This document shows, piece by piece, positions 2,550-9,782 of a stretch of 34,144 bases of DNA. Under the pieces are notes generated by a model that saw only the letters and a program-made list of their open reading frames with translations, had not been told where the DNA came from and searched no databases. Numbering within the stretch: position 1 is the stretch's first letter; each line of letters starts with the position of its first letter. Source of the DNA: Helicobacteraceae bacterium 4484_230 (GTDB lineage Bacteria; Campylobacterota; Campylobacteria; Campylobacterales; Sulfurimonadaceae); assembly GCA_002085085.1 (NCBI GenBank), contig MZGN01000006.1, positions 1 through 34,144 of the forward strand. The letters are read 5' to 3'. A program made the translations under genes and the position numbers.

Positions 2550-3326
2550 ATGTCTGACTCAACAGAAATCATATCATGGAATGTAAACGGCATACGTGCT
2601 ATTGCAAACAAAAAAGCACTTGAATGGATAGATGAACGCCAACCTGACATTCTCTGTCTTCAGGAGATAAAAGCATCGGCTTCACAGTTTCCGGACAATC
2701 TGTTCGATACGGAATATTCCGAACTGACCATAAACAGCGGTGAGCGAAAAGGATATTCCGGTACGGCTGTTTTTTCCCATCTAATACCTGAATCAACCGA
2801 CTACTGCCTCTCCATAGACAGACTGCATGAAGGAAGAATTATACAGCACAACTATGATGACTTCATTCTCTTTAATGTCTATTTTCCCAATGGCCAGAAA
2901 GATGAGGAGAGGCTTTCATATAAAATGGAATTTTATAACAAGTTTCTAAACTGTTGCGATTCACTACGTGAAGACGGACACTCCATCGTCATATGTGGCG
3001 ACATCAATACTGCACACAAAGAGATAGATCTGAAAAATCCAAAATCAAACTCAAAGACATCAGGCTTCCTGCCCGAAGAGCGCGCATGGATAGACAAACT
3101 GATAGAGCATGGCTATATCGACACCTTCCGTTATGTCCACGGTGATATAGAAGATGAATACAGCTGGTGGAGTTATCGCTTTAGTGCACGTACAAAAAAT
3201 GTGGGCTGGCGAATAGACTATTTTTTTATTTCAGACGATCTTGCCGAGTATCTTGAAGATGCATTCATATTACAAAATATCAATGGTTCAGACCACTGTC
3301 CGGTAGGAATTCGTCTAAATATTTAA
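2550..3326 (+). CDS. xth: Exodeoxyribonuclease III
   Basis: 258 aa; IISWNVNGIRAIANKKALEWI, ILCLQEIKA, ICGDINTAHKEIDL, WRIDYFFIS, GSDHCPVGI are ExoIII/AP-endonuclease signatures. Confidence 0.93.
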   Translation: MSDSTEIISWNVNGIRAIANKKALEWIDERQPDILCLQEIKASASQFPDNLFDTEYSELTINSGERKGYSGTAVFSHLIPESTDYCLSIDRLHEGRIIQHNYDDFILFNVYFPNGQKDEERLSYKMEFYNKFLNCCDSLREDGHSIVICGDINTAHKEIDLKNPKSNSKTSGFLPEERAWIDKLIEHGYIDTFRYVHGDIEDEYSWWSYRFSARTKNVGWRIDYFFISDDLAEYLEDAFILQNINGSDHCPVGIRLNI

Positions 3327-3437
3327 TACCTGCCGGCCAACTCTGCAGAAAAGCCCCTGATCTAGAGCTCCCCTTAAGCATATAAGACTAAAATATCTAT
3401 AGCACACCTAATAAATATAAAAACTAAAAGGACATTT

Positions 3438-4958
3438 ATGACAGATCATCGTGCAAGTGGTATTCTGCTGCATCCAACATCTCTTCCCTCCTCCTGGGGT
3501 ATCGGTGATTTCGGTCCTTCTGCGAGAAATTTCATTGATTTTTTATCATCATGCGGACAGAGCGTATGGCAGATGCTTCCTATAGGACCGACAGGCTACG
3601 GTGACTCTCCGTACCAGTCGCTCTCGGCTTTTGCAGGAAACCCTATGCTTATCAGTCCGGATATTCTTTTTAAAGAAGGATTGCTCTCAGAAAGCGATCT
3701 TGAGAATATCGATTTTTCCAGAGACAGTGTCGACTATGCAAATGTCATTCACTGGAAACAGAAACTTTTATCAAAAGCATACAGAAATCATGTTGAGGCC
3801 CCTGAAGCAAAACTTGAACATGAATATAAAGCCTTTGCAAAAAAACATGCTTCATGGCTTGACGATTATGCGCTTTTTGCGGCACTGAAAGAGCATTTTG
3901 ACCTAAAGCCGTGGACAGAATGGCCTGAAGAACTGATAAAGCGTAGAGCAAAAGCTCTGAAAAAATTCTCTATAAAATTAAAAGATCTCATAGACGAACA
4001 CCGCTTTGTACAGTTTCTCTTTTTTAAACAGTGGGATGATCTTCACGAATATGCCAGGTTAAAACATATCAGTATTATTGGCGACATACCCATTTTCCTT
4101 GCTCATGACTCCAGTGACGTCTGGAGCCACCAGGAGTGGTTTTTTCTTGACGAAGACGGCTACCCTACTGTTATAGCTGGAGTACCGCCGGATTACTTCA
4201 GTGCTACCGGGCAGCGTTGGGGTAACCCTATATATAATTGGAACAGGTTGGAAAAAGATGGGTACTCATTCTGGATAGAACGCATTAGACTGCTTTCAGA
4301 AATATTTGACATCATCCGCATAGACCACTTCAGGGGATTTGCCGGATACTGGGAGATACCGGCTTCAGAAGAGACTGCAATCAACGGGGAGTGGAAAAAG
4401 GGACCCGGCGCCAAACTTTTTCACTGCATTAACAATGCAATAGACGGCGAATTAAATATTATTGCCGAAGATCTTGGCATTATAACTGACGATGTCACTG
4501 CACTTATCGATGAGCTTGGCTATCCGGGTATGGCCGTTCTTCAATTTGGATTTGAATCCATGAACGGCAGTGATGAGACATCCTTTCTTCCACACAATCT
4601 CCGTAAAAACCAGGTTGTCTACACTGCCACTCACGATAATGACACGACCGTCGGATGGTGGAACAAGCAGAGTGATGATATACAGGATTTTACCAGACGC
4701 TATCTCAGTACAGATGCCATGACGATACACCGTGATTTTATGCGGGCTGCACTCTCATCTGTCTGTAAACTGGCAATATTTCCAATGCAGGATCTGCTTG
4801 GGCTTGGAAGCGAAGCATGTATGAACCGCCCGGGAACAGCCAGCGGAAACTGGCAGTGGCGTTTTACAGAAAAGATGTTGACGGAAACTGTTAAAGAAGA
4901 CCTGATTGAAATGACACGGCTCTACGGTAGAGAGCCGACACATCTCTTAAAAAGCTAA
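3438..4958 (+). CDS. malQ: 4-alpha-glucanotransferase (amylomaltase)
   Basis: 506 aa; RASGILLHPTSLPSSWGIGDFG, QMLPIGPTGYGDSPYQSLSAFAGNP, IRIDHFRGFAGYWEIP, IIAEDLGIIT, YTATHDNDTT. Confidence 0.94.
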   Translation: MTDHRASGILLHPTSLPSSWGIGDFGPSARNFIDFLSSCGQSVWQMLPIGPTGYGDSPYQSLSAFAGNPMLISPDILFKEGLLSESDLENIDFSRDSVDYANVIHWKQKLLSKAYRNHVEAPEAKLEHEYKAFAKKHASWLDDYALFAALKEHFDLKPWTEWPEELIKRRAKALKKFSIKLKDLIDEHRFVQFLFFKQWDDLHEYARLKHISIIGDIPIFLAHDSSDVWSHQEWFFLDEDGYPTVIAGVPPDYFSATGQRWGNPIYNWNRLEKDGYSFWIERIRLLSEIFDIIRIDHFRGFAGYWEIPASEETAINGEWKKGPGAKLFHCINNAIDGELNIIAEDLGIITDDVTALIDELGYPGMAVLQFGFESMNGSDETSFLPHNLRKNQVVYTATHDNDTTVGWWNKQSDDIQDFTRRYLSTDAMTIHRDFMRAALSSVCKLAIFPMQDLLGLGSEACMNRPGTASGNWQWRFTEKMLTETVKEDLIEMTRLYGREPTHLLKS

Positions 4959-4962
4959 AAGG

Positions 4963-6192
4963 CTATATGAACGATACGGAGACTCTGTGCCTATCATCAA
5001 TACCAAGTTCTTTTTTATCGGCAATGCCGGCAGAAAGCACAACAAGCTCAGCAAGCGTCACTATCGGCATAGGAATCTCTCTTCCAACCGCATTTTGACA
5101 CTTGCTGCCCAGTTGATCAAACATTTCGAAAGCTTCATCCGAATCTACGACAAGAATATCTGCAGAGTTGTCAAATGCATCCACAAGTATATTTCCGGCT
5201 TTTTTATAGGCTATCTCCGGTGCATTATCTTTAATCCCAAAGCCGCACGCCCTGTCACTTAGATCAAAATCCACAATACCTCCGCCAACTGCCTTTATAA
5301 CACTTCCAGCGCACTCATATGTACTCTTATCGGCTCTGCTTCCGCAATAAAAAGCAATATTGAAATCCTTAAACGGATGCTTTACGGCATCGGCAACAGT
5401 TTCAACGCCTATCTTTGAAATTAGATCAAGAGCGTCCTCTGGTTCATGCTCGGCATTGAAATGGGATGAGAGAATTTTTAAAGCAGGATCTTCCTGTTTC
5501 TCTTTTTTACCAGGCAGGACATTTTTGCACTTATCCATAATAAATTTGACCGGTGCCATCTGCTCGGTATTTACCAGCAAATTCTCTTCTATCAGCTGTT
5601 TCAGCTCATCGATGATTTCGCTTATATCTACCGAGGGGTATTGATTGTTTTCATATTCATAAAGCCCGATACCGTTCTTTTCGTCCGAGATAATCTCAAG
5701 TATCTCTTTTTTATGCTCGCTGCCGTTCTTTATAAGACGGTGTGCCAGAACAAAAAGAGAGTCGCCGAAATAGTCTCTGTTGTATTTGAGTGTTTCTGAA
5801 GCATAGTATGTCGCATAAAGCGTTCTGTAGAACTTCAAATCATCTTCACTGCAAAAGGCACTGAGGTTCTCATACTTTTGCATAAAATCGTCATCATTGA
5901 AACGCAGACAGTTTGTAGATCTGTAGATGGATGCAGGCTCTATCTTTATTCTGTTTCCAAATACTTCTACGATTTCCGACAGCTTTATTCTTGCATCAAG
6001 AAGCTTTGAATTTATCTGCACTATCGTCTTTATTTTTGGGTATTCAAAAGTCGGTTCCATCTCCTGAACACTCTTAAGCAGATCTTTTATATTTTTTGAT
6101 CCGTCTATTTCCAGATCAAAGGATCTGTAAAAAGGCAGATAATCCAGTTTTGAATCAAAAAAATAGAGTTCGGCATTTATTTCAACATTCAT
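4963..6192 (-). CDS. Putative cluster-less SdhB-SdhE fusion-like protein, unknown function
   Basis: 409 aa. Residues about 1-230 align by eye to SdhB of this window without its cysteine motifs; residues about 267-400 align to the second CCG domain of SdhE (FNIAFYCGSRADKSTYECAGSVI...RACGFGIKDN...SADILVVDSDEAF). Located 109 bp downstream of frdB on the same strand. Confidence 0.85.
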   Translation of the reverse strand: MNVEINAELYFFDSKLDYLPFYRSFDLEIDGSKNIKDLLKSVQEMEPTFEYPKIKTIVQINSKLLDARIKLSEIVEVFGNRIKIEPASIYRSTNCLRFNDDDFMQKYENLSAFCSEDDLKFYRTLYATYYASETLKYNRDYFGDSLFVLAHRLIKNGSEHKKEILEIISDEKNGIGLYEYENNQYPSVDISEIIDELKQLIEENLLVNTEQMAPVKFIMDKCKNVLPGKKEKQEDPALKILSSHFNAEHEPEDALDLISKIGVETVADAVKHPFKDFNIAFYCGSRADKSTYECAGSVIKAVGGGIVDFDLSDRACGFGIKDNAPEIAYKKAGNILVDAFDNSADILVVDSDEAFEMFDQLGSKCQNAVGREIPMPIVTLAELVVLSAGIADKKELGIDDRHRVSVSFI

Positions 6193-6301: not shown

Positions 6302-7051
6302 CTACTTCCCTATCTCAACCATTTTTCTGCGCAGATATGCTATCTTGGACTGCAATGGAAGATCTTTGGGGCATACATCCTCGCAGCCCAGAAGTGTCAT
6401 ACAGCCAAACACACCATCTTCATCACCGACCAATTCATAATAATCCTTATTACTTCTTTTATCACGAGGGTCAAGCTGATAACGGGCTATCTTGTTCATC
6501 CCGACGGCACCGACAAAATTCTCACGCATCTGAATGGTACCACACCCTGCAACACAGCAGCCACACTCCACACAGCGGTCAAGTTCATATATTTCTTCAG
6601 CAAGCTCAGGCTCCATGCGTTCTTCAAGCTTATGTACATCTATCTCTTCCTGGGCATGTATCCAGGTCTCAAGCCTTTCATTTAAACCACGCATCCACCT
6701 GCCGGTATAGATCGAAAGGTCACCGATCAGCTCAAAAAACGGCAGAGGGGCTAGCATGATCTCAGGGTCCAGTTTGGCTGTCAGCGTCCTGCACGCCAAT
6801 CCGGGACGGCCGTTTATAAGCATTGCACAACTACCACAAATACCCGCACGACAGACAAAATCAAATTTCAAAGAAGCATCATAATGCTCGCGAATATCAT
6901 TAAGTACAATAAAAAGTGTCATACCTGGAGCTTCTTCGATCTCGAAAGTCTCTATGTGCGGCTTGTCGCCTTTTACATGAGGATCATATTTTAATATACT
7001 TATTTTAAGCAGTCTTGCTTTTTTATTTTCCACTTTTTGCTCCTTTATCAT
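6302..7051 (-). CDS. frdB: Fumarate reductase iron-sulfur subunit
   Basis: 249 aa; [21 protein letters not shown] (2Fe-2S), [11 protein letters not shown] (4Fe-4S), [16 protein letters not shown] (3Fe-4S type). Confidence 0.95.
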
Positions 7052-9039
7052 ATAAGAGGTTCATTCAGGCGTTCATTTCTTCCGCGGTACTTTTCTGGAA
7101 GAAGCTCTTCATAGTGCATCAGCGCACGCTGCACTTCAAAACGGTCAAGCCCCTCTTCTTCCACCTCTACACGTATCTGATCGACCTGCCTCTGGCGTAT
7201 CTCGCTCTTTGGGTGGCGGATCGTCATATCTTTGCCGTATCCACGAAACCCGGGAGGAAGCTCCATCGTATCGATATCTATCTCTTCGTAACTTACAGTT
7301 GGCATTGTCTTGTCCGGATCGTCCCATCTCATAATGGTTCTTTTAAGCCACTCTTTGTCATTACGCTCAGGGTAGTCCTCACGGGCATGTGCACCACGGC
7401 TCTCCGTGCGCAAAAGCGCACCGTATGCCACTGTCAAAGCAACTTTTATCATTCTTTTTGTTCTGTATGCATTTACCAGAGCAGGGTTCGCGGCCAGTGA
7501 TTTTGATCTGAATACCTCTATGTTGTGGCTCCTGAAAAGCAGCTGCTCCAGCTCTTCTACCGCCTTTTTGAGATCTTTGCCGTTACGGAAGATCCCGACT
7601 TTTTCCATCATGATCTTTTCCATTGCGCGCCGAAGCACATAAGCATCTTCACCGTTCTTGTTGTGAATAAATCGCTCAAGTCTCTGCTGCTGGTCATTGA
7701 CAAAATGCTCGATCACGGAAGTGTGTATGTTAATACTGCTCTCTTCACTGTCGCAAAAATCTGAAATATACTCGGCAACCAGCATTCCCGATACAACTGT
7801 TTCGCTTACAGAGTTTCCTCCCAGGCGGTTAAAACCGTGCATATCCCAGCAAGCGGCCTCTCCACATGCATACAGACCTTTAAGTGTCTGTGATTCACCT
7901 GTATATTTTGTACGGATACCGCCCATCGAGTAGTGTTGTGTCGGGCGGACAGGGATCCACTCTTTGGCAGGATCTATCCCCAAAAAGTTCTCACAGATCT
8001 CTTTTACTTCACGAAGGTTTTTCTCTATATGCTCACGTCCCAGTATCGTAATATCAAGCCAGAGATGATCTCCGTAGCGAGACGGCACCCCTTTTCCCTT
8101 TCTTATATGTTCTGTCATTCTTCTGGATACAACATCACGTGAGGCAAGCTCCTTTTTCTCCGGTTCATAATCCGGCATGAAACGGTAACCGTCTACATCA
8201 CGCAGAACACCTCCGTCTCCACGACACCCTTCAGTAGTCAAAATACCTACAGGAACGATGGCTGTAGGGTGAAACTGGATCGCCTCCATGTTTCCCAGTG
8301 TGGCAACCCCGGTTTCAAGTGCAATAGCCTGCCCCATACCCTGGCAGATAACGGCATTTGTAGATACACTGTATATTCTTCCGTATCCGCCGGTCGCTAT
8401 CGTCGTTGCTTTGGCTATGTAAGCAACCAACTCACCTGTCATCAGGTTGCGTGCCACGGCACCGTAACAGCGCTTGTTTTCATGTATAAGCGCGATCGCT
8501 TCGAGCCGCTCATGCACCTCTATCCTGTCTTCATGTGCTTTGTTATCCATTGCAAAAAGCATACTGTGACCGGTACCGTCCGAGGTGTAGCAGGTACGCC
8601 ACTTCTTGGTTCCACCAAAGTCCCGTGCGGTAATCAGCCCGTGTGCTTCGCTTTTTTCATTTATAGTTACTTTCTGTGCATTGATGATGGCAGTATGGTC
8701 ACCCTGCCTTACCCTGTTCCACGGCACACCCCATGCAGCCAGTTCACGGATCGCTTTTGGGGCGGTATTTACAAACATACGCACCACTTTCTGATCCGCA
8801 CCCCAGTCACTGCCTTTTACAGTATCTTCAAAATGGATATCTTCATTGTCGCCTTCACCCATTCTGCAGTTACCCAAACTTGCCTGCATCCCGCCCTGAG
8901 CAGCGGCGGAGTGTGAACGTTTCGGCGGAACCAGTGTTAACACAACTACATCGTGTCCGCGTTCCTTGACTCCGGTAGCAGTACGAAGCCCTGCAAGACC
9001 TCCACCTATAACCAATACATCTGTATAAATAATATTCAT
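7048..9039 (-). CDS. frdA: Fumarate reductase flavoprotein subunit
   Basis: 663 aa; [15 protein letters not shown]-binding, [14 protein letters not shown] flavinylation region, [36 protein letters not shown]; overlaps frdB by 4 bp. Confidence 0.95.
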
Positions 9040-9782
9040 TTTTGCACCTGCTTACCTGCATGCTCGACAGAGTGATAGCGCTCACCGACATGACCCTGAT
9101 GTTCAAACCCTATTTTCATATATGTTGCAATACTCAACAGCCCAAGCGTCATAAAAAAAGCTATAAAACCATACTGGAACTTTTTCAGGATCTGTCGGCT
9201 CTTTTTTGCATTTTTACCTTCAAACCAGCCCCACTTGAGACATAAGCGGTATGAGCCGATACCGGCATGCAATATAACCGCTATCAACAGCAGTAAAAAC
9301 AACGGCCACATCCATTCTGATACCATTCTGTCCGATGAAGCATAAGGGCCAATATCCCCGGGTTGACTCATAACGATATAGAGATGAACCGAACCCAGGA
9401 AAAACATCACAAAACCTGTAACTATCTGGATGAACCATGTTGACGTATCCGTATGCCTGAATGATTTCATATGGTTTCGAAATATTCTGTACTGTCTATA
9501 ATTTGAAGGGAACTTCCTTATGGCAACCAGCGCATGAAGGATAAAAACGGCAAAAATAAAAAAGCCCAACACTGCAATAAGAAACGGGTATCTCTCACCC
9601 AGGAAATAGTATCCCTCAAAAAATACGGTCATCGCATACATAGACTCTTTGCCAAAAAGAATACTGGATTCAAAAAACATATGAGCCCAGATAAACAGCG
9701 CAAGTATTAAACCGGTAGCGCTCTGTATAAAATCCAGACGTGCCGGAACTTTGTTGATTTTATGATTATTTTTTGCATTCAT
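9036..9782 (-). CDS. frdC: Fumarate reductase cytochrome b subunit (diheme)
   Basis: 248 aa, five-TM protein with His positions in [27 protein letters not shown] and [11 protein letters not shown] matching the Wolinella FrdC heme ligands; overlaps frdA by 4 bp. Confidence 0.93.

Follow-up and report, generated by a model that had tools for sequence, protein, structure and literature searches.

The 409-aa protein encoded at positions 4963 to 6192 of the window (the whole stretch of 34,144 nucleotides that was analysed), whose gene is called psb here, belongs to a family that almost certainly shares ancestry with the subunits SdhB and SdhE of E-type SdhABE and that, very probably, cannot carry iron-sulfur clusters as these subunits do. 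The reading of psb as a pseudo-subunit is well supported, and the family probably does a non-electron-carrying job across the Campylobacterota; a scaffold role specific to complex II is partly supported. In the text below, f-, G- and L-numbers designate families, genomes and loci, respectively.

The psb gene in the window

The original prediction described a 409-aa open reading frame related to both SdhB and SdhE, which was borne out; the gene lies on the minus strand, and the plus-strand frame over the same positions is broken by stops. The genes concerned are the following.

4963..6192, minus strand: psb, cluster-less SdhB-SdhE-like protein of 409 aa with DUF5644 + HdrB-like_C architecture, ATG at 6192
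6302..9782, minus strand: frdC (9036-9782), frdA (7048-9039) and frdB (6302-7051); NF010071, 411.9 bits
1..2522, plus strand: 3' part of sdhA (1-633), sdhB (643-1623) and sdhE (1635-2522), the cluster-bearing paralogues, E-type SdhABE

psb is located directly downstream of frdB on the same strand, after a gap of 109 bp, in the order frdC-frdA-frdB-psb. The sdhABE genes, of which sdhA is incomplete and runs off the contig start, are on the opposite strand and are separated from psb by two other genes (2550-4958). When compared with the equivalog cut-offs of 8-methylmenaquinol:fumarate reductase (MFR), the products of 643-2522 reached 166 of 600 bits for SdhB and 227 of 500 bits for SdhE; because these scores are far below the cut-offs, the window SdhABE is considered as E-type and not clearly as an MFR. 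No match to anti-phage models (PADLOC) was obtained.

Homology of the two halves to SdhB and SdhE

5578..6192, minus strand: N-half of psb (residues 1-205), SdhB-like, 2Fe-2S-type and helical ferredoxin-type domains without ligands (hhalign 99.3%, residues 4-205)
4966..5430, minus strand: C-half of psb (residues 255-409), ligand-free counterpart of the second SdhE/HdrB CCG-type domain (BLASTP, hhalign, Foldseek, ligand columns)
5605..5892, minus strand: DUF5644 match (PF18712), residues 101-196, 7.9e-5
4993..5220, minus strand: HdrB-like_C match (PF22196), residues 325-400, E 1.8e-10, above the gathering score

By BLASTP, the N-half aligned with the window SdhB over residues 4-153 (22% identity, E 4e-13) and the C-half with the window SdhE (28%, 3e-16). 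These relationships, both of which had been proposed from the sequence by eye, were reinforced by hhalign with alignment A5, made of nine psb orthologues and containing neither SdhB nor SdhE: the probability and E-value were 99.3% / 1.5e-20 for SdhB (residues 4-205) and 98.2% / 5e-14 for SdhE (residues 255-401). The same profile did not match the two controls, the window FrdB (0.3%) and an unrelated window protein (0.1%), and the relative of psb is therefore the SdhABE-type SdhB rather than the adjacent FrdB. An origin of psb from the neighbouring frdB was rejected on the same 0.3% value. A search of all PDB sequences with profile A1, in which no SdhB row is present, retrieved 3KWL (6.3e-40), E. 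coli FrdB (2.9e-7), HdrB (6e-6) and E. coli SdhB (4e-5). One proposed correspondence did not survive: the match PVAIKMYKKGKIVLP ~ PVKFIMDKCKNVLPG (PVAIKMY), assigned to the end of SdhB, lies outside the profile alignment, which stops at SdhB residue 244 and psb residue 205.

PF18712 scored 23 bits on the window protein with hmmscan, for a cut-off of 25; in the genome search it exceeded the cut-off, with 26.9 bits. PF18712 followed by PF22196 in the expected order identifies the protein as a member of the DUF5644 / HdrB-like_C family, in agreement with the early guess of an existing Pfam DUF with an HdrB-like C-terminus. A search of the window protein with PF02754 (CCG domain) gave no match. 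The H. pylori-like members have the same two Pfam domains and, in addition, give a weak Fer2_3 match.

Loss of the iron-sulfur ligands

6019..6039, minus strand: residues 52-58, site of the missing SdhB [2Fe-2S] cysteine loop (7-residue gap, alignment A2)
5797..5829, minus strand: residues 122-132, aligned to the first SdhB 4Fe-4S ligands, no Cys (alignment, ligand columns)

Just before residues 122-132, a 20-residue gap relative to SdhB marks the missing segment that precedes the first 4Fe-4S ligands. At the twelve SdhB ligand columns, Cys was present in 22/22 SdhB sequences, and at ten of them in 0/81 psb loci, which confirms that the SdhB ligand groups are gone. At the two remaining columns Cys was counted in 9/81 and 4/81 psb loci, and at the ten SdhE ligand columns in 0-14 of 79 psb members versus 24/24 SdhE; the counts of 9/81, 4/81 and 14/79 come from a gappy alignment and may be due to chance. 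The psb proteins display neither the ligands for a [2Fe-2S] and two further clusters that characterise SdhB/FrdB nor the 10 Cys in two CCG motifs of SdhE/HdrB. Moreover, one member of 292 aa (L079:5633-6511, G321) contains no cysteine at all and the likely coding part of another (L053:5690-6814, G209) is also devoid of it, so that any Cys-ligated cofactor is excluded in those members. Cluster binding through conserved substitute cysteines was considered and discarded, as no conserved Cys set was found in the 81 loci.

In the N-half, 67% of the well-conserved columns share the SdhB consensus residue versus 23% of the remaining columns. The persistence of scaffold residues noticed at the outset is thus real; as proof of a retained interface it fails, because such residues also persist as core fold.

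Predicted fold

A template-free AlphaFold2 model of the window protein, computed from alignment A5, had a mean pLDDT of 72.6 and a pTM of 0.51, and the packing of the domains is therefore uncertain. Foldseek ranked 3KWL on top (7.6e-14, prob 1.00), with an overall TM of only 0.40-0.47, followed by HdrB chains (4e-8 to 7e-7) and complex II SdhB/FrdB chains (5e-5 to 4e-3). The expected resemblance to complex II and HdrB chains was thus observed in the predicted structure, and the folds of both halves are supported by a model built without SdhB or SdhE in its alignment. The homologous fold of both SdhB/FrdB domains was recovered in psb by hhalign, Foldseek and the PDB profile search. From its match in the PDB profile search and its first rank with Foldseek, 3KWL belongs to the same family as psb. 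Judging from family, organism and length, this entry is presumably HP0468, whose gene of 1488 bp agrees in length with the H. pylori-like ORFs of 495 aa; we take it that the structure of this H. pylori member was solved in 2010, without known function. The H. pylori-like proteins (about 495 aa) have a fuller, two-domain HdrB-like half, whereas most of the first CCG domain is gone from the window protein.

Distribution, selection and origin

psb was found in many families of the order and in about 126 of its 301 genomes, a hand count from the genome searches with profile A1 and PF18712 together; PF18712 matched 0/14 control genomes. A scan of the genome collection with alignment A4 returned ten loci. 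The gene is fused in the window, in the H. pylori-like genomes and in most others, and split into two adjacent N and C genes in f20, f5 and part of f11 and f14. Four f15 members (L048, L060, L114 and L118; 324-337 aa) stop early within the HdrB-like domain, which leaves this family with a shortened C-half.

The Nei-Gojobori dN/dS of closer pairs from the H. pylori-like genomes, f11, f6, f15, f9, f1 and f20 ranged from 0.03 to 0.24, indicating purifying selection on psb as had been anticipated; more distant f9 pairs gave 0.3-0.6. The original prediction had set against itself the case of a decaying paralogue whose homologues retain their cysteines. What was found is a family with low dN/dS in which the ligand Cys are essentially absent from the homologues too. 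In a tree of 33 psb members and 22 SdhB, whose root is not fixed and in which some members are long-branched, a branch supported at 100/100 set all 33 psb apart from the SdhB, and a single origin is therefore the simplest reading.

Gene neighbourhood of psb

The surroundings of psb were compared in 81 loci. psb precedes sdhABE, with both on the same strand, in seven f15 loci (4-bp overlap in three, intervening ORF in one), seven f6 loci, three f7 loci (ORF between in two) and one f9 genome, the usual order in these four families being mostly psb-sdhA-sdhB-sdhE. In two f1 loci, psb adjoins sdhA divergently. The frdCAB-psb arrangement was encountered in the window only. The proposed tie to the neighbouring enzymes is supported for SdhABE, whereas the placement next to frdCAB is particular to the window.

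A desulfoferrodoxin-type superoxide reductase gene (PF01880; for instance L127:4158-4550, L054:4769-5158, L072:10731-11117 and similar) follows sdhE in f6, f7 and one f9 genome and directly follows psb in f20. This recurrence suggests an old psb-sdhABE-sor locus. The f20 order, thiL<>psb-superoxide reductase, resembles the f6/f7 arrangement minus sdhABE, and thiL and/or truD flank psb in many families. The simplest scheme is an ancestral locus truD-thiL <> psb-sdhA-sdhB-sdhE-sor from whose f20 copy sdhABE was lost, and the data support one origin of psb in, or early beside, this ancestral locus.

Other neighbours are not respiratory. In f9, psb lies between murA and a 208-aa gene in 15/15 loci with the murA-psb arrangement; the 208-aa protein (L091:6438-7064 and 14 other loci) has no Pfam match. 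In f14, psb is near pepF. In H. pylori-like genomes, its neighbours are a peptidase M3 (oligopeptidase F) gene and a gene whose 162-aa product (L055:6235-6723) has no Pfam match.

Co-occurrence with complex II

Among the 301 genomes, the FrdB equivalog was over its cut-off in 148, an SdhE match was present in 220 (a count that includes weak matches to psb C-halves) and some SdhB/FrdB in 296. No strict co-occurrence of psb with FrdCAB or SdhABE was found in this set and, because 296/301 genomes have some SdhB/FrdB, co-occurrence with complex II is little informative. In the family of the window, psb was detected in 4/28 sampled genomes and SdhABE in nearly all. FrdCAB is present and psb absent in several f9, f11 and f14 genera. 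Conversely, psb occurs without SdhABE in most f9 and f14, many f11 and many f20 genomes, and without FrdCAB in most f15, in f18 and in three f1 genomes. Two MFR-type SdhE copies of equal score were noted in G185 (G185:C1:377756-378598 and 1366416-1367258), a genome without psb.

One f20 draft genome, G135 (1.5-Mb, 99% completeness), has kept an intact split psb pair under constraint (dN 0.25-0.27, dS 0.7-1.5). The search of this genome gave no SdhB/FrdB match and a single distant flavoprotein match (31%). In its relative G123, one gene precedes frdC and another follows frdB; in G135, the former is followed by other genes and the latter is preceded by 670 bp without frdB; restriction-modification-like genes occupy the place of the apparently lost frdCAB (L147-L149). 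G135 is one draft genome, in which a recent frd loss would leave a lag.

Possible function of psb

The mechanism that we tentatively rank first, above an independent role, is that of a cluster-free accessory partner. psb would have arisen in the sdhABE operon, keeping the SdhB and SdhE/HdrB folds and losing the ligands. Through its SdhB/SdhE-like surface it may associate, in a non-redox manner, with an SdhA-type flavoprotein or some other protein, and its role could be accessory, regulatory or in assembly, in the first place for SdhABE; a later client, FrdCAB or something outside complex II, would have outlived SdhABE. Against this reading count the dispensability of psb in the window's family and in the FrdCAB-bearing f9, f11 and f14 genera, its occurrence without SdhABE or without FrdCAB, its persistence in G135, and its places next to murA in f9 and near pepF in f14. 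It is also conceivable, if less likely than not, that a phylum-wide cluster-free SdhB-SdhE pseudo-subunit, present in H. pylori- and Campylobacter-like species too, fulfils a general role independent of electron transfer, through SdhA/FrdA-type flavoproteins or a new client. As for the initial proposal that psb may act on FrdCAB and/or SdhABE as a scaffold, chaperone, decoy or regulator, the operon link to SdhABE speaks for it, while G135 and the many genomes that keep either enzyme without psb speak against it.

psb might instead have left complex II long ago for an independent housekeeping or regulatory role, its placement in the sdhABE operon being an ancestral relic. We lean against this possibility: the constrained psb pair of G135, where complex II was not detected, the lack of one or other enzyme in most psb lineages and the stable non-respiratory neighbours (murA in f9, pepF in f14, thiL/truD in many families) are in its favour, but the tight sdhABE operon with 4-bp overlaps has been kept in several families, and upregulation of HP0468 by H2 has been reported (PMC6090961), as would suit a respiratory setting. 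A redox-dead psb replacing SdhB/SdhE in an alternative SdhA complex, as a stoichiometric decoy, would be compatible with the retained SdhB-like positions of the N-half and with psb heading the sdhABE operon in f15 and f6; judged from sequence, it is unlikely, and it leaves the psb members without SdhABE unexplained. Binding of a cluster or metal through other ligands is highly improbable, since the single Cys of the second CCG motif kept by 14/79 members is opposed by the lack of any conserved Cys set and by the member without Cys. Finally, a decaying paralogue or an artefact, for which the loss of ligands alone would plead, is hardly credible for intact ORFs with a dN/dS well under 1, present in about 126/301 genomes and with a solved H. 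pylori relative; decay was ruled out on dN/dS, intact ORFs and breadth. Since psb is linked to an operon, occurs naturally in split form and has been lost from some genomes, its function is open to direct testing.

Comparison with known systems

A published list of DUF5644 proteins includes HP0468 (PMC9570263), and 3KWL is entered as no more than an uncharacterised protein of H. pylori (PMC3397514). In the open-access literature (most subscription papers lay outside the search), no statement deriving the DUF5644/HP0468 family from SdhB-SdhE was found, nor any paper on C. jejuni Cj1459/Cj1460. The latter are presumably the locus tags of the C. jejuni truD-thiL locus. The Pfam family DUF5644 + HdrB-like_C, including HP0468, was thus already known; no record of the cluster-less SdhB nature of its N-half was found in that literature, and the SdhB-SdhE derivation gives an origin to a conserved family with a solved H. 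pylori member. As far as we know, there are few documented cases of respiratory-complex pseudo-subunits whose fold persists after the loss of every cofactor.

SdhABE has been described as an E-type complex whose SdhE has 10 cysteines (PMC2680327). In E-type enzymes, MFR included, SdhB and SdhE are homologous to the psb halves, in the same order and often in the same operon, but psb is devoid of cluster ligands and is either fused or paired as a separate protein. TfrB of the methanogen thiol:fumarate reductase is an SdhB-HdrB fusion that carries clusters. Against the TfrB model (NF004898), partial matches were obtained with the window SdhB and with the window SdhE, and none with the window psb protein. 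With regard to HdrB of heterodisulfide reductase, whose chains the C-half matches in fold, noncubane clusters are not expected in psb because the CCG cysteines are absent.
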